Positions 242 through 9,751 of a DNA stretch of 64,000 bases are shown piece by piece; position 1 is the first letter of the stretch, and the number at the start of each line of letters is the position of its first letter. The stretch is from an uncultured Spirochaetia bacterium (GTDB taxonomy: Bacteria; Spirochaetota; Spirochaetia; CAKZLE01): NCBI GenBank assembly GCA_937125225.1, contig CAKZLE010000022.1, positions 1 to 64,000 of the forward strand, given 5' to 3'. The translations under genes and the position numbers were made by a program. Below the pieces are notes generated by a model. That model was given only the letters and a program-made list of their open reading frames with translations. It searched no databases and was not told the origin of the DNA.

Positions 242-1654
242 TTACCTGCTAGCCCCTTCCTGCTGATACCTTGTAAGAATCTCCTGAAGTTGTAGAACAA
301 TTTCAGGTCTATCATTCCACAGATTAGTCGTTTCACGAAAATCATCATGGATATTGTATAGTTGACCCTCAGGTTTATTACCTTCTGGGGTATATCGAGC
401 TGGTTCACTGAATCCCCCGGAACCATTCCCGAATACTGCTTTCCATTCACCTTTCCTGACAGAGAATAGCCCATCTAGAGAGTGGTGTACTAGAGCTTCA
501 TGAACAGGAGAATCTACTACCTCATTTTTAAGGACCGGTAGAAAACTCTTACTATCCTCTGCATGATTCGCAGGTATTTCTACATCGATTATATCGGCAA
601 GAGTTGCAAAGATATCTACTAGGCAAAGTGGTTCATCAGATATCAAACCTTCAGGGATAGTATCGGGCCACTGGGCAATACATGGTTCCCGATGTCCACC
701 ATCGTAGATATCACCTTTCTGTCCCCTAAGATCCCCGTTGGATTTATGACCATAGTCCTTACCATCATAGTTGAGTGCTCGCGCCCCGTTATCTGAAGAG
801 AAGATCACCAACGTATCCTTTTCAAGGTTATGTTCTTCTAGAGCTTTTCGTACCCTACCTACCATATGATCAACCATTAGTACCATATCACCTCGATTCC
901 CTGCATTGGATTTACCTTTCAGGAATTCCGGTGGAACACAAGGCCTGTGAGGAGAAGAGGGGGTAAGATAGAGAAAGAACGGTTCTTCCTCCTTACTTTG
1001 TCTCTCTATGAATTCCTCTGCTTTTTTGATGAACGTGAGATCCACCTCTGTTTCCTCAAAGTTCTTCGCCTGCATCCCTTCGCGCTGCTGAGGGTAGAAA
1101 TGATGCTTCTTGAACGTCGGCAGGGTTTCTGGTCGATTATTCTTCAGATAACAGTAGGGAGGCATATCAAGGGATCCGGCAATTCCGAAGAATTCATCAA
1201 AACCAAGGTCACAGGGACCTCCTTTGAATCCACGTGCATAATCGACTGTATCCCCATCTATATTCCAGCCATTGATATCACACTCTTTAAGAGCCTTACC
1301 TTCAGTATCATACCAATCCAGTCCCAGATGCCATTTACCGATTGCTGCAGTCTGGTAACCCTGTTTTTTGACTAAAGAGGCCAGTGTCTCCCTTCTCTGT
1401 TCGATGAGGGGCGCCCCGAAACCGCCGAGTACATACTCCTTCAGCCTAGTCCTCCAGCAGTATCGCCCAGTTAAGAAGCTATATCTACTCGGTGAACAAA
1501 CAGCAGAGGAAGAGTGCATATCAGAGAAGCGGATACCGCTTTCTGCCATGCTATCCAAATTGGGAGTAGAGAAATTAACTGCTCCCTGGCAGCTCATATC
1601 ACCATAACCCATATCATCTGCAAAAATCATTATTATGTTAGGTCTTTTACTCAT
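242..1654 (-). CDS. Sulfatase, arylsulfatase A-like, Cys-type
   Basis: A 470-residue sulfatase of the alkaline phosphatase superfamily, predicted to hydrolyse a sulfate ester. Near the N-terminus an NIIMIFADDMGYGD metal-binding segment (D13, D14) is followed by C53-S-P-S-R57, the C-x-P-x-R signature whose cysteine is converted to formylglycine. A GKWHLG segment and a later SSDNG metal motif are also present. There is no signal peptide, so it should act in the cytoplasm; a maturation enzyme (FGE or anSME) must be encoded outside the window. A good ribosome site (AAGGAAATAGAC) precedes ATG. It is the last gene of the tct-sulfatase operon, 117 bp after the LacI gene, so it may also have its own promoter. 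The substrate is unknown. Confidence 0.9.
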   Translation of the reverse strand: MSKRPNIIMIFADDMGYGDMSCQGAVNFSTPNLDSMAESGIRFSDMHSSSAVCSPSRYSFLTGRYCWRTRLKEYVLGGFGAPLIEQRRETLASLVKKQGYQTAAIGKWHLGLDWYDTEGKALKECDINGWNIDGDTVDYARGFKGGPCDLGFDEFFGIAGSLDMPPYCYLKNNRPETLPTFKKHHFYPQQREGMQAKNFEETEVDLTFIKKAEEFIERQSKEEEPFFLYLTPSSPHRPCVPPEFLKGKSNAGNRGDMVLMVDHMVGRVRKALEEHNLEKDTLVIFSSDNGARALNYDGKDYGHKSNGDLRGQKGDIYDGGHREPCIAQWPDTIPEGLISDEPLCLVDIFATLADIIDVEIPANHAEDSKSFLPVLKNEVVDSPVHEALVHHSLDGLFSVRKGEWKAVFGNGSGGFSEPARYTPEGNKPEGQLYNIHDDFRETTNLWNDRPEIVLQLQEILTRYQQEGASR

Positions 1655-1771
1655 GTCTATTTCCTTCTTGTTGTATTTTGTTGAAATTCACTAAAGAGGT
1701 ATAATTTCGATTGTTACTCTTTATGACTAACGAAAAATTATAGAATATTCATTTTATTCTGTTCAGATATC

Positions 1772-2779
1772 TTACTCTCTTAGAGTTTCTCCCTGAATGA
1801 AGACAGGATCGATAGTGATGACCTCAGGGGGAATTATTATTTTGGGCTTTTTTGAGTCAATAGCCTGAAAAAGCAGTTTCACAGCTTCGTTAGCCATTTG
1901 TTTCGGTTCAAGCTCAAATGATGATAACTCTTGAACCTGAATCTCTGGAGAATAACATGAAGCACCTGAGATGATTGATATTTCCTTGGGAACACTCTTC
2001 CCTAGAGAAAAACAGACTTTCAGGGCACACATGGCCATAGGGTCATCTATGGTGAAAATACCATCTATATCAGGATTATGAGTAAGTAAATCTTTCAGCT
2101 CTTGGCTGAGTTGGTCAGAATTATTAATAACTATACATTCTATATCAGGATTCTTATTCTTAAGTTCATCAAGGAATCCCTCAGTCCTGCATATATCAGG
2201 TCTACTGGTTTGATTCCCTGAAATAGTAATAATATTTCTACATCCAGCCACTATCATCCTGTCAGCAGATTCTTTTCCAATAAACTCATTATCGACTCTT
2301 ACGATTGGTGCATTGATATTATGATAATAACGTCCAAGCTGCACCACAGGTGTTCCTGAAGCTATTACCTCATTGATCTCTTCAATATTATCTCTGTTCG
2401 AGGGTGTTATGATTATCCCATCAATTGATTTGTCCTGTAGAGAGGCGATTATTGTTCTTTCTCTTTCGGTATCTCCTCTTGAAGAGGTGATGATTACATG
2501 AGATCCTCGCTGTTCAATCTGTTCTTCAAGATATTCTGCAAATTTCGGGAAAAAGGGATCTTGTAGAGTAGGAATCACTATCCCGATGTTGAAGCTTCTC
2601 TTGAGTGCCATACCACGTGCCTGTAGATTGACGTGATACCCTACTCTTTTCATGACTTCATTAACCTTCTCAATAAGCTCTGGGTCTACATTCTCTTTCC
2701 CGTTTATCACATTTGAGACTGTTCCAACGGAGACTCCTGCAATTCTTGCAACGTCTTTTATTGTAATCTTACTTTTCAT
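1772..2779 (-). CDS. LacI-family transcriptional regulator
   Basis: A 335-residue LacI/GalR regulator. The N-terminus (TIKDVARIAGVSVGTVSNVI) is the canonical LacI helix-turn-helix with hinge, followed by a periplasmic-binding-protein-like ligand domain (IGIVIPTLQDPFFPKFAEYL onward). It lies 9 bp after the upstream sulfatase and inside the transporter/sulfatase operon, so it probably senses the imported compound or a breakdown product. The likely target is the 28-bp palindrome upstream of tctC, made of two LacI-type half-operators with central CG. Repression of its own operon is inferred from that arrangement and is not shown directly. Confidence 0.9.
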   Translation of the reverse strand: MKSKITIKDVARIAGVSVGTVSNVINGKENVDPELIEKVNEVMKRVGYHVNLQARGMALKRSFNIGIVIPTLQDPFFPKFAEYLEEQIEQRGSHVIITSSRGDTERERTIIASLQDKSIDGIIITPSNRDNIEEINEVIASGTPVVQLGRYYHNINAPIVRVDNEFIGKESADRMIVAGCRNIITISGNQTSRPDICRTEGFLDELKNKNPDIECIVINNSDQLSQELKDLLTHNPDIDGIFTIDDPMAMCALKVCFSLGKSVPKEISIISGASCYSPEIQVQELSSFELEPKQMANEAVKLLFQAIDSKKPKIIIPPEVITIDPVFIQGETLRE

Positions 2780-2788
2780 ATACCGTTC

Positions 2789-4126
2789 CTAATTGATCCC
2801 TACAGCTATATTATCATTACTATTAGCTATAAAATGATCATAAAAATCATCTCCAATATCAACCAATTTTCTTTTAAGCCTAGTTTCAAGATCATTCCTG
2901 ATTGAAGAGCATTCATTTTCCCAATAGAGGTTCTTCGTCTGATAGGGATCTCTTATCATATCATATAGACGACAGTTTGAATCTTTTCTTGCCTTGATTA
3001 TCAAGTAATCATTTGTTCGTAGAGCACGATAACTATACTCAAGATCATCATCATCAAACCAACTATTGAGTTCGATGAGAACTTCCTGCCTTCCAGAAAT
3101 ATTCTGTCCGAAAATCTGCTCTGAATAATCATTACCCTTCATCGAGTCTGGTATATCCATACCAACGAGTCCCAATGTGGTGGTTGGTATATCAATACTA
3201 CTGATAAGATTCTCGCTTACTGATGGGGATATTATTTCTCCAGGATAACGAATAATAAAAGGTATGTTTGACGATTCTTCCTCAGCATAGAACTTCTGTA
3301 CTCGATTGTGGCTACCCATGAAGTCTCCATGATCAGAAAAATAGAATATGATAGTATTATCATACTGGCCGTTTGATTTCAGTGTATCTATTAACCTTCC
3401 GATATTATCATCAAGATTCTTGATCTGAGCATAATACCCTTTTGATTTCGTAATATTCTCTGATGTTTTCCAACAATCAGGTACATTATCTCTAAAGCTT
3501 ATTTCCCGGTCATCATAATCCCGCATATAAGATTCAGTAGTAACGTGGGGGTCATGTGGTGGTTCAATCGAAACGACCATGAACCATGGAGACTCTTCTT
3601 CCATACTATTGAGTTGGTCTATAGCTAAATCTGTAAGAGAGTCAGTCTGGTACCCTGAGAGTGTTTTTAGCGGCATCGGATAGTTCCCTTCAGCATATTG
3701 TGTATTGAAGGGTCTATTGGAATTCTCCCACCCGATCCAGGTATCCCACCCGGGGCGAAAACAGGGAGCAACGAAATGGCTTGGGGCGGCTCCACCAGAA
3801 AGATGCCACTTTCCCAAATGTACCGTATGGTAGCCATTAGCTTTGAAGACCTCTGGTAGCATGAGTATCCCTTTGTCTATAGGTCTATGCAATGAACCAA
3901 CTCCATGCTGATGGATATATTGAGAAGTATAGACAGAGGCCCTGAATGGTGAGCACAAAGGACTGATAGAATAGGTATGGGTGAATCTCACCCCCTCACC
4001 TGCCAATGAGTCAAGATTTGGGGTCTCAACATTACTACACCCGCTGCAGCTCATTGCCTGTCCACGATGCTGATCACTGAATATCCAGAGAACATTCTTT
4101 TTATCTGGTTTATTACGATCACTCAT
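2789..4126 (-). CDS. Sulfatase, Cys-type, second paralogue
   Basis: A 445-residue sulfatase. The N-terminal NVLWIFSDQHRG segment contributes the metal-binding aspartate (D18), and C58-S-P-F-R62 is the formylglycine signature. HLGKWHLSG and the later YFSDHGDFMG metal site complete the fold. There is no signal peptide, so a cytoplasmic location is predicted. Its start overlaps the end of tctA by 8 bp, implying translational coupling to the transporter. It is only distantly similar to the other sulfatase in this operon, so the two probably act on different positions or steps. The style resembles choline-sulfatase/heparan-type bacterial sulfatases, but I would not name a substrate. Confidence 0.9.
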   Translation of the reverse strand: MSDRNKPDKKNVLWIFSDQHRGQAMSCSGCSNVETPNLDSLAGEGVRFTHTYSISPLCSPFRASVYTSQYIHQHGVGSLHRPIDKGILMLPEVFKANGYHTVHLGKWHLSGGAAPSHFVAPCFRPGWDTWIGWENSNRPFNTQYAEGNYPMPLKTLSGYQTDSLTDLAIDQLNSMEEESPWFMVVSIEPPHDPHVTTESYMRDYDDREISFRDNVPDCWKTSENITKSKGYYAQIKNLDDNIGRLIDTLKSNGQYDNTIIFYFSDHGDFMGSHNRVQKFYAEEESSNIPFIIRYPGEIISPSVSENLISSIDIPTTTLGLVGMDIPDSMKGNDYSEQIFGQNISGRQEVLIELNSWFDDDDLEYSYRALRTNDYLIIKARKDSNCRLYDMIRDPYQTKNLYWENECSSIRNDLETRLKRKLVDIGDDFYDHFIANSNDNIAVGIN

Positions 4127-5618
4127 TGACGAACCTCTTTTTTAAAAGATGTATCGACTGCTTGATTACAGGAGTCAAGAATGAGATACCTGCCAGAATC
4201 AGGAATACGAGACTTATTGGTCTTTCATAGAATATTGAAAATGTATTATCTGAAATAGCCATAGAACGTCTGAAGTTATTCTCAATCAATGGTCCTAGGA
4301 CCAGTCCTAAGAGCATCGGAGATCTGGGAATATCCAGATTATGCATAACAAGTGCTATTATTGCTATCACGAGGGCTAAGTAGAGATAAAAGATCGTATT
4401 ATTCACAGCAAAAGAACCCGCTAAACACAATGCAGCGATCACTGGAGCCAACATCGCATATGATATGGTAGATAGTTTTGTGAACAACTTAATCAATATC
4501 TTTCCTTGGAACAACATAAGGATATTGATGATTGTGAACCCAATGATTATTGCATAGATCTGAGGCCCTTGTTCAGTAAATAACCTGGGACCGGGAGTCA
4601 TACCATGAACCATCAAGGCTCCCATCATGATAGCTGCAGCAGCATCGCCAGGAATTCCCAGGGTCAAAAGTGGGATCAGGGCCGTTCCAGTGGCTGCATT
4701 ATTAGCAGATTCTGTTGCAGCAACGCCTTCCAAACATCCTTTCCCATACTCATCTCTACGCTTAGAGAATCGTTTTGCCTGGGAGTATGAGATATAGGAA
4801 GCTATCGCACCACCAGTACCTGGAATGGCACCTATGATATTTCCAATGAGTGTTCCTCGTATGATTACGTTCTTTGACTCCAGAAGTTCTGACATGAGAA
4901 GTTTTTCTTCCTGTTTTATCTTGTTAGAGTCTATTTTTTTAATATCAAGTTTACGGTTTTTGTTTATCAGCACCTCTGCTAATGCAAACAGCCCGATTAG
5001 AGTCACTACTAGAGGTATTCCACTAAGTAATCGATAATTATCAAAGGTGAATCGACTTACTCCAGCAGCATCTACTCCAATACAACTGATGAGGATACCA
5101 AGAGAACCACTGATAATCCCTTTCAGTAGATTCCCACCGCTTATACTCGAGATGATCGACATCCCAAAGAATGAGATCGCAAAATATTCAGAGGGACCGA
5201 ACTTCAATGAAAGTTTAGCAATCTGGGGGGAGAGGAAAAGTAACATAATAGCGCTTACCACTCCTCCAATACAAGATGCATATAAGGCCATATCAAGGGC
5301 CTTCTTTGCTTTCCCGTTCTGTGCTGCAGGATACCCATCAAGAATTGTCGCAGCACCAGCTGGAGCACCTGGAGTATTTATTAATATCGCAGTAATAGAT
5401 CCTCCATAAACACCACCTACATAAAGTCCAAGCAGTACCAATAGCCCTGATACGGGTGTGAGTCCAAAGGTCAGGGGGAGAAACAGGGTGATTGCCAGCA
5501 TACCTGTCAAGCCGGGAATTGCACCAACAATGATCCCGAAAAATAGACTGAAGTTCATCAGTAGAAAATTTTCAAGTGTTGCCAGTTGAATAAACGATTG
5601 ACCGATAATTTCAAACAT
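4119..5618 (-). CDS. tctA: Tripartite tricarboxylate transporter, TctA large permease
   Basis: A 499-residue polytopic membrane protein of the TctA/DUF112 family, the large permease of TTT secondary transporters. Family hallmarks include GAIPGLTGMLAITLFLPLTF near the N-terminus, the GGVYGGSITAILINTPGAP segment and a second copy near GAIPGTGGAIASYISYS. A longer reading to 5660 exists, but 5618 is preferred because it gives ATG behind GGGGAGG at good spacing, one base after the tctB stop. It works with tctB and tctC to import an organic acid using an ion gradient. In this operon the cargo is probably sulfated (see findings). Confidence 0.93.
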   Translation of the reverse strand: MFEIIGQSFIQLATLENFLLMNFSLFFGIIVGAIPGLTGMLAITLFLPLTFGLTPVSGLLVLLGLYVGGVYGGSITAILINTPGAPAGAATILDGYPAAQNGKAKKALDMALYASCIGGVVSAIMLLFLSPQIAKLSLKFGPSEYFAISFFGMSIISSISGGNLLKGIISGSLGILISCIGVDAAGVSRFTFDNYRLLSGIPLVVTLIGLFALAEVLINKNRKLDIKKIDSNKIKQEEKLLMSELLESKNVIIRGTLIGNIIGAIPGTGGAIASYISYSQAKRFSKRRDEYGKGCLEGVAATESANNAATGTALIPLLTLGIPGDAAAAIMMGALMVHGMTPGPRLFTEQGPQIYAIIIGFTIINILMLFQGKILIKLFTKLSTISYAMLAPVIAALCLAGSFAVNNTIFYLYLALVIAIIALVMHNLDIPRSPMLLGLVLGPLIENNFRRSMAISDNTFSIFYERPISLVFLILAGISFLTPVIKQSIHLLKKRFVNE

Positions 5619-5619
5619 C

Positions 5620-6114
5620 TTACATACCTCCCCAAAGTGTACTTGACGGAAGATAAACATAGAGGAAGAATTTAAATAGGAAATTAATAATGATTATTAT
5701 ACTGAATATGATCATATAATTGAGCCACTTTTTTTGTTTATAATTTATCAGTATGGCACTTGTGAGCATACAGGTAGAAATCATAAATCCAATAATCGGT
5801 AGTAAAATCAGATACAGATAAAAAACACCACAATACAGAATATATCCGAGACCTTTCTTAACTACAGCTCTATCGATAGTAGTCTCTATATGTTTACTAT
5901 TTATGATACCCTGTAGGATGAGTATCAAGCTGCAGCTTAGGATGATCCATAGAAGCACTTTTGGAAGAGACTGTGAAGAAAAAGTTGTAATTGACCCTAT
6001 CTCGATTATCTTATCCAGATTGATTAATAGATATAATGATAGAGTAGATCCAATTATTCCGGATAATGATTCTTTATTTAGGATACGATTCAATATTGCT
6101 TGTCTGTTTATCAT
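5620..6114 (-). CDS. tctB: Tripartite tricarboxylate transporter, TctB small permease
   Basis: A 164-residue protein with about four hydrophobic segments, matching the size and topology of TctB small subunits. The sequence itself is weakly conserved, as is usual for TctB, so the call rests mostly on position between tctC and tctA. The tctA ribosome site (GGGGAGG) lies in its last codons, so translation of the two is coupled. A ribosome site AAAGG lies about 8 bases before ATG. The 67-bp gap to tctC contains a short inverted repeat (around 6138-6155) that could stabilise the tctC part of the transcript. Confidence 0.8.
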   Translation of the reverse strand: MINRQAILNRILNKESLSGIIGSTLSLYLLINLDKIIEIGSITTFSSQSLPKVLLWIILSCSLILILQGIINSKHIETTIDRAVVKKGLGYILYCGVFYLYLILLPIIGFMISTCMLTSAILINYKQKKWLNYMIIFSIIIIINFLFKFFLYVYLPSSTLWGGM

Positions 6115-6181
6115 AAATGAAACCTTTGTTACCTCCAGACAGCTTTCAAGCTGCCCGAAGGGAATAAATTTATAGTTTTAG

Positions 6182-7153
6182 CTATTCAACGTATTTAAGC
6201 CATTGCTTAACATCTTCGATTCCTCTGGTGATCTTTGCGTCTATCTCGTCAGGTGTCAGTGGATCTACAACAAATCCCATTCGCTCCTGCAGCTCCTTGA
6301 TCTCTGACATCTCAAAGATCTCAGCAAACTTTTCCTGATAGAATTCAACTATCTCAACAGGGGTGCCTTTGGGTACAGCATAAAAATTGAATCCTGAATA
6401 GTCGATATCATAACCAAGAGATATAGCAGATGGGACCGCTTCAGTATTTTTGAACTTCACTTCCATGCTATCATTAAAAGTTATAATAGGTACTAGTTCC
6501 CCAGACTCAACATATGGTGCAACTACAGGTGCCAATGCACATACAAGATCGATGTTACCACCCAGGAGGCTTGCAATAGGTTCTGTAACTTTATCAAATG
6601 GAACTGGTGTAGCCTTAGCATCCATCTCTGTGAACAGTGCAGCTTGTAACATATGGGAATCAGATTTCAATCCAAATGTACTATATTTTATGATATTATT
6701 TATTCCATAGGCTTCCAAACTATTGAAATCTTTGATTTCTGATGAAGCAGAAGCACATACGACCATGGCAGTCTTTCCGATATTTCCAATGATTGGAATA
6801 TAATCATCATAGCTATACATAACCTTTGTTGTCTGTGGTCTGATAGCCATCAATCCAATATTTGCTGTGATAATATTATATCCATCAGGTTTCTTCTCAA
6901 TGAACTCTGTTACTGCTACGACGCCTCCGGCACCTGTTCTATTCACGACTCCCATGGGTTGCCCCATAACTTCATTTGCATGTTCAGCTACAGCTCTTGC
7001 AAGAACATCTGCATTTCCACCTGCTCCGTAAGGTACTGTCAGTGTTATTGGTTGTGTTGGGAAACTTGCAGTAATCTCCTCGCTTTGTCCCTGTGCCCAT
7101 AAGGCCCCAGCAAAACATAACAGTACTGCACAAAGTAATGTAATCTTTCTCAT
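6182..7153 (-). CDS. tctC: TctC/Bug-family periplasmic solute receptor
   Basis: A 323-residue extracytoplasmic binding protein of the Bug (tripartite tricarboxylate receptor) family. It opens with a signal peptide (MRKITLLCAVLLCFAGALWA, cleavage likely before QGQ). Next come family motifs ITLTVPYGAGGNADVLARA and NRTGAGG, then a VPFDKVTEP segment. The reading frame is open to 7231, but 7153 is chosen: AAAGGAG sits at ideal distance, and the upstream extension covers the promoter and operator. It delivers substrate to TctAB. Bug proteins typically bind carboxylates through a water-mediated pocket; the ligand here is unknown. Confidence 0.92.
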   Translation of the reverse strand: MRKITLLCAVLLCFAGALWAQGQSEEITASFPTQPITLTVPYGAGGNADVLARAVAEHANEVMGQPMGVVNRTGAGGVVAVTEFIEKKPDGYNIITANIGLMAIRPQTTKVMYSYDDYIPIIGNIGKTAMVVCASASSEIKDFNSLEAYGINNIIKYSTFGLKSDSHMLQAALFTEMDAKATPVPFDKVTEPIASLLGGNIDLVCALAPVVAPYVESGELVPIITFNDSMEVKFKNTEAVPSAISLGYDIDYSGFNFYAVPKGTPVEIVEFYQEKFAEIFEMSEIKELQERMGFVVDPLTPDEIDAKITRGIEDVKQWLKYVE

Positions 7154-7173
7154 TTCAAACTCCTTTTGTTTAC

Positions 7174-7201
7174 GATGAAACGGTTCATGAACCGTTTCAT
7201 C
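7174..7201. promoter_or_regulatory. 28-bp palindromic operator before tctC
   Basis: A perfect inverted repeat of 28 bp. Its inner 24 bp are two abutting 12-mers, TGAAACGGTTCA and its reverse complement TGAACCGTTTCA. Each is a LacI-type near-palindrome with central CG. It sits just downstream of the -10 box of the tct promoter, where a bound repressor would block initiation. The in-operon LacI protein is the obvious candidate. Confidence 0.8.
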
Positions 7202-7202
7202 A

Positions 7203-7231
7203 ATACTAAGCCCTGTTATGATATCTGTCAA
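7203..7231 (-). promoter_or_regulatory. Sigma-70 promoter of tct-sulfatase operon
   Basis: On the minus strand TTGACA (7226-7231) and TAGTAT (7203-7208) are separated by exactly 17 bp. The palindromic operator follows at the expected transcription start. This supports the shorter tctC start. Confidence 0.8.
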
Positions 7232-7328: not shown

Positions 7329-7403
7329 GATACCTAGAAACTACACATTGAATCAAATTACAACAGACTCAATTTATTGGACTATTGATCAGGAGAATGA
7401 ATT

Positions 7404-8100
7404 ATGTCAGTTTTAAACCGTAGATGGATGCTTATGTTACTTTTACTTATCCTCTCTCCTTCAATGATACATGCAAATCAACAGATCTATACTCCTGATT
7501 CCAGTTTTGAATATCATATCGAAGATGATGAAGTGACCATCTTAGGGTTCATGGGGACTGAAACAGAAGTAGTTATCCCTCCAGTCATTGAGGGGTATCC
7601 AGTCACCACTATAGGAGAATATGCCTTCATAGCATGTAATGATATCTGGAGCATCACCATCCCTGTCGGTGTGACTACCATAGATTATGGTGCATTTTAT
7701 CTATGAGAAGGTCTTAAAGAGATCAATCTACCCGATACAATTAACGTGATCAAAGAAGAGGCTTTTACACAATGCAATAAACTTGAAAGAGTAGTCATCC
7801 CTGAAGGAGTCACCTCACTGGAAGATTATATGTTCTATGAATGCAGCGAATTGGAATTCGTCCGATTGCCGGAAACTCTTACCTCCATCGGCTCTATGGT
7901 CTTTGTCCTCTGTACGGATCTTAAGAAACTGTTGATCCCTGGAAGTGTTGATCATATTGCAGATGATGCATTCTATATACAGTTGTTTTGACTATATCTT
8001 CTGTGAGGCACCTGATAAACCTGAGAGATGGTCAGATACGTGATCAGAACAGAATCTTGACTTTCATTCTGTGGAGGTAATCTGGAGCTATGAGAGATAA
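7404..8100 (+). pseudogene. BspA-type leucine-rich-repeat protein, broken
   Basis: This is a remnant of a secreted LRR_5/BspA-like surface protein. It has a ribosome site AGGAG, a signal peptide ending SMIHA, then repeats with the pattern AF..C..L..I.IP...T.I. Three lesions interrupt it. A TGA at 7704-7706 falls where the other repeats have cysteine. A net frameshift lies near 7980. A TGA at 8041-8043 replaces what should be a tryptophan. The shifted frame from 7990 encodes the typical family tail FCEAPDKPERW and ends at 8100. The repaired protein would be about 230 residues, short for the family. It is most likely a recent pseudogene. Confidence 0.85.
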
Positions 8101-8629: not shown

Positions 8630-9751
8630 TTACCTGTTATCCCAGATTGAAGAGGGGTCTTTTCGTTTTCCGAAACCGAATACATAACTACCACTTAAGA
8701 ATAATCTATTCATGAATGGAAGATGTTTGATGAAGAAACGAACGAAGTTATGAAGGAATCCACTCTTTTGATTGAATGGGCATACTCTGATACACACTCC
8801 ACAATCTGTCTTACTCTTACACCAGAATCTGAAACATGATTCAGGATTGACATACCATTTCATCGGTCCGTTATTATTTGATATTGTAGGACCTTCATTC
8901 GTCATCTCATCGAAAGATATTGATTTTGAGGGACAATACCTGGCACATTTTTTACATAGGTCACAGAATCTCTTCACACCAAATGATACCGGCTTATCAG
9001 GAACTAATGGCATATTGGTGAAGATCTTACAGATTCTCACTCTTGGTCCATACTTCTCTGTTATCAAGAGCCCATTTCGGCCTAACTCTCCTAGACCTGC
9101 ATCAATGGCGATAGGAATACTCAAGGCGGTACCATTTCCACAGGGATAAGCATCATAGCCAATCTCCCGGATGAACTTTGACACCATCCCGGATATGAAC
9201 GCCATCTTAGAATAACCTAGACCGGCTGCTGCAGCACTTCCATTCGAGGGGGCTGTCTGTATTAGGTCATAATCCATTTCGATAGCAATCGCTATCACGT
9301 GCCCCATATCTTCGGGGAGATCTACCGGAAGATGCTCTTTTCTGCTTCTACTATATGTTTTCGAATAGAGCCACTGCTCCCGAATCTCGGCGACTCCCAC
9401 AAGAGATGCGCCATAGATCTTAGCTACCCGTTTGATTTTCTTTGTCAGTTCTTTCGGTGTTGCTTTGATCTTCTCTCTTGTTGCTAAAGGGCCATTCACT
9501 TCATCAGATGCTACGGGTGAATACAGGGTTCCTTTCACACCTACAGAACTACCTTTGCCAAAGTAATCTTCTACATACCAGGCAGCATCAGTAAGAGCAA
9601 ATCCTTCATGACTATACCCAGGTTTCCCGACGATCGATTCAGAATCACGGAAGATCCTATCCTGTTCTTGCCATTCCGGCTCTAATGTGCATCGTCTGAA
9701 CATATCATTCTTCTGATCGAACCGTTCTATTCTGTTATCTGATTCTTTCAT
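8630..9751 (-). CDS. Reductive-dehalogenase-like corrinoid/Fe-S protein
   Basis: A 373-residue protein. The C-terminal third carries two 4Fe-4S motifs: C263-x2-C266-x2-C269-x3-C273-P and C317-x2-C320-x3-C324-P, with further cysteines at 306 and 311. The middle contains DAGLGELGRNGLLITEKYGPRVR, a segment typical of reductive dehalogenase (RdhA) and epoxyqueuosine reductase (QueG) corrinoid-binding cores. The spacing after the first cluster, W-x4-ESC and TDCG-x-C-x3-CPF, is RdhA-like. There is no twin-arginine signal and no RdhB anchor gene nearby, so it would be cytoplasmic and not part of a standard respiratory dehalogenase. It may reduce an organohalide or another substrate. The start is uncertain because the ribosome site is weak. 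Confidence 0.7.
   Translation of the reverse strand: MKESDNRIERFDQKNDMFRRCTLEPEWQEQDRIFRDSESIVGKPGYSHEGFALTDAAWYVEDYFGKGSSVGVKGTLYSPVASDEVNGPLATREKIKATPKELTKKIKRVAKIYGASLVGVAEIREQWLYSKTYSRSRKEHLPVDLPEDMGHVIAIAIEMDYDLIQTAPSNGSAAAAGLGYSKMAFISGMVSKFIREIGYDAYPCGNGTALSIPIAIDAGLGELGRNGLLITEKYGPRVRICKIFTNMPLVPDKPVSFGVKRFCDLCKKCARYCPSKSISFDEMTNEGPTISNNNGPMKWYVNPESCFRFWCKSKTDCGVCIRVCPFNQKSGFLHNFVRFFIKHLPFMNRLFLSGSYVFGFGKRKDPSSIWDNR

Follow-up and report, generated by a model that had tools for sequence, protein, structure and literature searches.

Operon layout and gene content

We analysed a window of 64,000 nucleotides (positions 1 to 64,000 of contig CAKZLE010000022.1, assembly GCA_937125225.1) from an uncultured Spirochaetia bacterium. 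Six minus-strand genes in its first 7.2 kb encode, in the order tctC, tctB, tctA, S2, lacI and S1, a tripartite tricarboxylate transporter (TTT), two sulfatases (S1 and S2) and a LacI-family regulator. The window begins at base 1 of the contig, and the view of the operon ends there, just beyond S1. An earlier interpretation from the letters alone, here called the sequence-only reading, had proposed that these genes form one unit for the uptake of a sulfated organic acid or uronide and its desulfation after import. The features of the locus are as follows.

7203..7231, minus strand: promoter-like site of the unit (TTGACA, 17 nt, TAGTAT; 10/12 matches)
7174..7201, unstranded: perfect 28-bp palindrome (two 14-nt arms, 100% complementary)
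6182..7153, minus strand: tctC, solute-binding protein with signal peptide (PF03401 93.8 bits; PDB 4x9t 100.9 bits)
5620..6114, minus strand: tctB, small membrane subunit (PF07331 43.0 bits, cut-off 29.1)
4119..5618, minus strand: tctA, permease (PF01970 481.5 bits)
2789..4126, minus strand: S2, Cys-type sulfatase of 445 aa (Pfam Sulfatase 181.0 bits), no evident signal peptide
1772..2779, minus strand: LacI-family regulator (Pfam LacI helix-turn-helix 58.4 bits, plus a periplasmic-binding-like domain)
242..1654, minus strand: S1, Cys-type sulfatase of 470 aa (Pfam Sulfatase 193.3 bits), no evident signal peptide

All six proteins exceeded their curated Pfam cut-offs, and gene content, order and strand agreed with the sequence-only reading. 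The TctA, TctB and TctC domains were encoded together, which identifies the importer as a TTT. The tctC start was moved from TTG 7231 to ATG 7153, which yields a proper signal peptide and was preferred because the letters of TTG 7231 open the -35-like hexamer TTGACA. For tctA, ATG 5618 was preferred over 5660 because of a GGAGG sequence and the position of the tctB stop. The genes are separated by 67 nt (tctC-tctB), 1 nt (tctB-tctA), 9 nt (S2-lacI) and 117 nt (lacI-S1), with an 8-nt overlap between tctA and S2. S1 is the least certain member of the unit because of the 117-nt gap after lacI. This gap holds a weak promoter-like site (1765-1737, 10/12 matches), of a kind that occurs across the region at chance level (29 observed vs 27.8 expected), and a terminator scan of the region listed none within the gap.

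The 28-bp palindrome begins 1 nt past the -10-like hexamer of the tctC promoter-like site. Its 24-bp core (7176-7199) is the sole site with zero to two mismatches to its pattern in the 3.43-Mb genome; one further site appears at three mismatches, and a reversed control gives at least as many. We take its halves to be similar to LacI-type operators, and the palindrome is probably the operator of the LacI-family regulator encoded in the unit. A local repressor would be the natural reading of a unit-encoded LacI protein together with a palindrome unique in the genome, the pairing of the two being predicted.

The published TctC motif P-F-x-A-G-G-x-x-D is described as a carboxylate pincer in the accessible part of the source (PMC5812351). 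The window TctC reads P-Y-G-A-G-G-N-A-D, with Tyr for Phe, and was counted as carrying the motif. Such a pincer would fit a ligand bearing both a carboxylate and a sulfate, although the motif is no proof of one; binding and transport of a small acid by this TTT are predicted.

The catalytic Cys lies in a C-x-P-x-R motif at residue 53 of S1 (CSPSR) and residue 58 of S2 (CSPFR), and the scores of both proteins passed the domain cut-off of 25 bits for type I (formylglycine) sulfatases. The nearest PDB entries of S1 were 7oze, S1_15 sulfatases and an N-acetylgalactosamine (GalNAc)-6-O-sulfatase, and those of S2 were the N-acetylglucosamine (GlcNAc)-6-sulfatase 5g2v and S1_30A. S1 and S2 share a sequence family with these respective entries, and differ from them in having no evident signal peptide and in standing in a TTT operon. 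We use the PDB names as leads towards sugar sulfates, not as assignments of specificity; the two proteins are predicted to hydrolyse sulfate esters. Neither reached the cut-off (433.45) of the choline sulfatase (BetC-like) model TIGR03417, with 87.7 bits for S1 and 147.8 bits for S2. Signal peptides were judged by a hydrophobicity heuristic, the highest 12-residue mean within the first 40 residues, with seven solute-binding proteins as the positive reference. The maxima were 1.07 for S1 and 0.23 for S2 vs 2.44-3.19 in the reference proteins, in line with the earlier claim that both sulfatases lack a signal peptide.

Sulfatases and importers in the host genome

Within 3 kb, a sulfatase was found beside 5/7 TctA genes of the host genome vs 0/9 DctM genes of tripartite ATP-independent periplasmic (TRAP) transporters (Fisher one-sided p 0.005; binomial tail ~3e-6). 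Of the two TTTs that have none, the first adjoins the citrate lyase genes citD, citE and citF. The second (C31, L042:126-5366) adjoins a protein scoring 539.5 bits against an L-ascorbate 6-phosphate lactonase model (cut-off 306) and also lies near a relative of a Pfam-confirmed TauE. The closest host paralogue of the window TctA is that of the C3 locus (52%). Among host paralogues, S1 is best matched by the sulfatase that immediately precedes tctC in the C3 TTT operon, and S2 by the one in the C18 TTT operon. C18 also encodes the formylglycine maturase that the sequence-only reading had called for, an anaerobic sulfatase maturase (TIGR03942 448.1 bits, cut-off 349.45), and PF03781 matches occur in the host genome as well.

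The genome holds 18 sulfatase-domain genes, 17 of which carry C-x-P-x-R (C31c reads C-I-A-S-R). By position, six stand with a TTT, ten with an ATP-binding cassette (ABC) importer, as assigned by a Pfam check of one protein in each of eight clusters, and two with neither (C3b and C27). This host appears generally to import sulfated compounds and desulfate them inside the cell, with the TTT as one of two importer types. The ten sulfatases beside ABC importers (L043, L045-L049, L052), one cluster of which has an alpha-L-rhamnosidase-like protein, might, as a side reading, represent a larger import-then-desulfate repertoire.

Two genomes of the same class, G009 and G069 (65 and 75 sulfatase-domain matches), were intended as a secreted control, and 0/11 Cys-motif sulfatases looked secreted among the 16 sulfatase open reading frames (ORFs) recognised at 30 loci, several of the ORFs being evidently in the wrong frame. 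The outcome is a hint that the habit extends more widely in the class, and it gives the signal-peptide heuristic no validation.

The TTT-sulfatase pairing in related genomes

The sequence-only reading had suggested looking for the same gene set in related genomes, and the pairing does recur. The window TctA served as query across the class (248 genomes), and 60 loci were read. Sulfatases were present in 12/20 of the first-ranked loci, 3/20 of the next and 2/20 of the last, a group that includes eight hand-picked lower-rank loci (L138-L145); among the resulting 17/60 are a 31-bit fragment (L143) and a frame that was misread (L104). Named genomes were scanned with a query alignment of 12 TctA that were all sulfatase-linked and so bias the scan towards linked loci; of the 80 loci obtained, 19 have a sulfatase. 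The linked hosts were Spirochaetia, several Clostridia, a Cytobacillus, a Rhodospirillaceae and a Deltaproteobacteria record (L202) whose sulfatase has no catalytic Cys. Together with the host loci, 143 TctA rows were reduced to 136 by removal of identical sequences; TctA missed by ORF calling (e.g. L109, L130, L164, L214 and L215) stand outside this set. A sulfatase lay within 6.5 kb of 34/136 distinct TctA, in a same-strand run in 29, and two or more sulfatases (>150 bits) lay within that distance in 8/136.

The linkage was clustered on the TctA tree, a quick build in which some long branches meet. One clade (SH-aLRT 98) has 25/39 sulfatase-linked members vs 9/97 outside it, and the sulfatase label required 16 changes vs a shuffled mean of 30.4, with 0/500 shuffles as low. 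The linked host TctA C18 and C24 fall outside this clade, among the long branches that meet. Of 40 linked sulfatases with C-x-P-x-R, one (L176_4871) scored as secreted, probably because its TTG start was set too far upstream; signal peptides in homologues, which would have told against cytoplasmic desulfation, were otherwise absent. Four more linked ORFs lack the motif: a fragment (L096), the misread frame at L104, L154 (C-M-S-A-R) and L202.

Some loci also carry partner genes. An anaerobic maturase lay within 6.5 kb of 5/34 linked TctA vs 0/102 others (Fisher p 0.0008), and a TauE/SafE-like gene near 4/34 linked vs 2/102 unlinked TctA (Fisher p 0.034), p values that ignore relatedness and come from models built partly from these loci. 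The TIGR03942 cut-off was passed at L086, L091 and L148, L159 fell slightly under it (327.1), and the L154 maturase is split over two ORFs, one of which was scored against NCBIfam. The Cytobacillus locus L156 has a protein of the formylglycine-generating enzyme (FGE) family (PF03781, 295.8 bits) and two chromate transporter (CHR) genes, and no anaerobic maturase above cut-off was found in that genome. CHR and TauE proteins may export the freed sulfate.

The nearest pathway clue to a substrate came from another organism, Marasmitruncus massiliensis (Clostridia, L152), and points to a galactonate-type sugar acid. There, a divergent gntR is followed by tctC, a sulfatase, tctB and tctA, and then by genes for a D-galactonate dehydratase (647.8 bits, cut-off 311), a KDPG/KHG-family aldolase and a 2-keto-3-deoxygalactonokinase (DGOK). 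In Planococcus ruber (L162), a TTT stands with these galactonate genes but lacks a sulfatase. Together the two loci look like a sugar-acid TTT operon to which a sulfatase was added, in a single case.

Two further groups of TTT operons were observed. At L104, L105, L108, L118 and L137, a second TTT-sulfatase group has relatives of a DUF3604/CehA-McbA-like protein (c6) and a weakly mandelate-racemase-like protein (c8), of which the L105 copy gave a weak Pfam MR_MLE match (33.1 bits) and no PDB sequence match. TTT operons at L087, L146, L149 and L151 carry a metallo-beta-lactamase-fold protein beside a lacI-like gene, assigned by Pfam for L087 and by similar N-termini for the other three; the TctA of L087, L146 and L149 lie within the sulfatase-rich clade, yet have no sulfatase.

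Proposed function and alternatives

We consider it likely that the unit works as an import-then-desulfate system. In the periplasm, a small sulfated organic anion would be caught by TctC, and TctAB would move it intact into the cytoplasm. The active-site cysteine would be converted to formylglycine by an anaerobic sulfatase maturase whose gene lies elsewhere in the genome, and S2, probably also S1, would strip the sulfate ester(s) in the cytoplasm. A LacI-family repressor, bound between promoter and tctC at the 28-bp palindrome, would keep the unit off until the substrate enters. Ligand, activities and repressor-operator pairing are predictions from sequence. This reading is favoured because of the 5/7 vs 0/9 pairing in the host genome, the clustering on the TctA tree, and the maturases and anion exporters at some loci. 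Import followed by cytoplasmic desulfation, as first proposed, is supported by this comparison, and the uronide named as a possible substrate stays a conjecture. By analogy with the one Clostridia operon (L152), the most likely substrate class would be a sulfated sugar acid. More widely, a branch of TTTs may be dedicated to sugar-acid sulfate esters such as galactonate sulfate, used by anaerobic Spirochaetia, Clostridia and some aerobic Bacillaceae, with cytoplasmic desulfation, sulfate export by TauE/SafE or CHR proteins, and entry of the acid into, for example, the galactonate pathway; we put this forward tentatively, with doubt slightly prevailing.

Several observations weigh against these proposals. 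The window operon itself includes no catabolic gene. The missing signal peptides, which the sequence-only reading had presented as a surprise, lose force as a special sign, since none of the 18 host sulfatases (0/18) has an evident one and their absence is a habit of this genome. Within the sulfatase-rich clade, 14/39 members have no nearby sulfatase; L089 and L101 sit on contigs of ~6 kb, but L087, L146, L097 and L175, among others, have ample flanks, so one cannot infer a sulfatase from the membership of a TctA in this clade. The TTT-adjacent sulfatases are diverse, and the loci therefore need not share a ligand. The galactonate TTT-sulfatase operon was observed once: relatives of its sulfatase at E 1e-80 or better occur in 3/297 genomes of its family, itself included, and in the regions read the other two showed no TTT arrangement and had other sulfatase neighbours. 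At L156, the FGE was matched at the level of the family, and no NCBIfam sulfatase-maturase equivalog matched it. A change in TctC of the pincer Thr before Asp to Ala (15/32 linked vs 2/89 unlinked) was not used as evidence because independent pairs on the tree were not significant.

Three alternatives were considered. The TTT might import an ordinary carboxylate, the sulfatases being separate enzymes (e.g. for sulfur scavenging) that share the regulator by chance. Known TTT ligands are mostly carboxylates in the part of the literature source at hand (PMC5812351), the TctC pincer motif is retained, the operon encodes no catabolic enzyme, and some close TctA relatives have no sulfatase beside them. 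We nevertheless judge this improbable in view of the tctA/S2 overlap, the host pairing that sets TctA apart from TRAP permeases, the clustered linkage on the tree, and the L152 sulfatase placed between tctC and tctB. The formylglycine requirement does not separate sulfatases from phosphonate or phosphodiester hydrolases, and S1 and S2 could be PehA-like enzymes of the latter kind, with an importer carrying a phosphonate or phosphate ester. Phosphonate monoester hydrolases do occur among the S2 PDB matches, and the PehA model NF045661 matches S2 at 122.3 and S1 at 67.1 bits. These scores are far under its cut-off of 900, the best PDB relatives of both proteins are named sulfatases, mostly of carbohydrates, and TauE/SafE or CHR genes stand at some related loci, which together make a PehA-like role quite improbable.

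A milder alternative, compatible with import-then-desulfate for S2, is that S2 alone belongs to the TTT unit, S1 being a gene apart that has a promoter of its own and a different substrate. The 117-nt gap and the promoter-like site ahead of S1 speak for it, whereas the closest S1 paralogue abuts tctC in the C3 operon and multiple sulfatases beside one TctA recur (the 8/136 above); we hold it unlikely, if by no means negligible.

Most described sulfatase systems free sulfate outside the inner membrane. The glycosaminoglycan cluster of Streptobacillus moniliformis, as far as the consulted portion of its description goes, pairs an ABC importer (Smon0120-0123) with a sulfatase (Smon0126) predicted to be cytoplasmic and to act after import, so that, as proposed here, a sulfated compound is taken up whole (PMC5430744). 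It differs from the window operon in using an ABC importer for unsaturated disaccharides and in having polysaccharide lyases and a glycoside hydrolase (PMC5430744). The window TTT shares its three subunits, the tctC-tctB-tctA order and the pincer motif with the TctCBA-type systems (citrate TctC, BugD, BugE, AdpC), whose described ligands are mostly carboxylates, the accessible part of the source naming no sulfate ester or sulfatase partner (PMC5812351).

To our knowledge, the substrate of SlcHFG, the TTT of sulfolactate users, is a sulfonate with a C-S bond, and no sulfatase is involved. SlcHFG resembles the window system in tying a TTT to the metabolism of a sulfur-containing acid and differs in having tctB downstream of tctA, going by the same portion of the source (PMC5812351). 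The component parts are thus known, and the pairing as a recurrent module appears to be undescribed, as the sequence-only reading had suspected: a search of largely open-access literature, with most subscription papers and preprints outside it, found no paper linking TTT and sulfatase. A recurrent module would give a testable substrate class for TTTs of unknown ligand, name a route for anaerobes to use small organosulfates, and predict a ligand, galactonate sulfate, for the isolate M. massiliensis. A TTT branch for sugar-acid sulfates, if real, would be an organosulfate route left out of secreted-sulfatase models.

Beside the operon, two plus-strand ORFs in one frame (7401-7991), split by a single stop codon, match BspA-type leucine-rich repeats (with LRR_5, the first part scores 25.8 bits, below cut-off, and the second 82.6 bits) and look like a broken surface-protein gene. 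Further on, a minus-strand gene (8630-9751) encodes a protein above the reductive dehalogenase cut-off (TIGR02486 218.6 bits, cut-off 160.35) with a 4Fe-4S domain.

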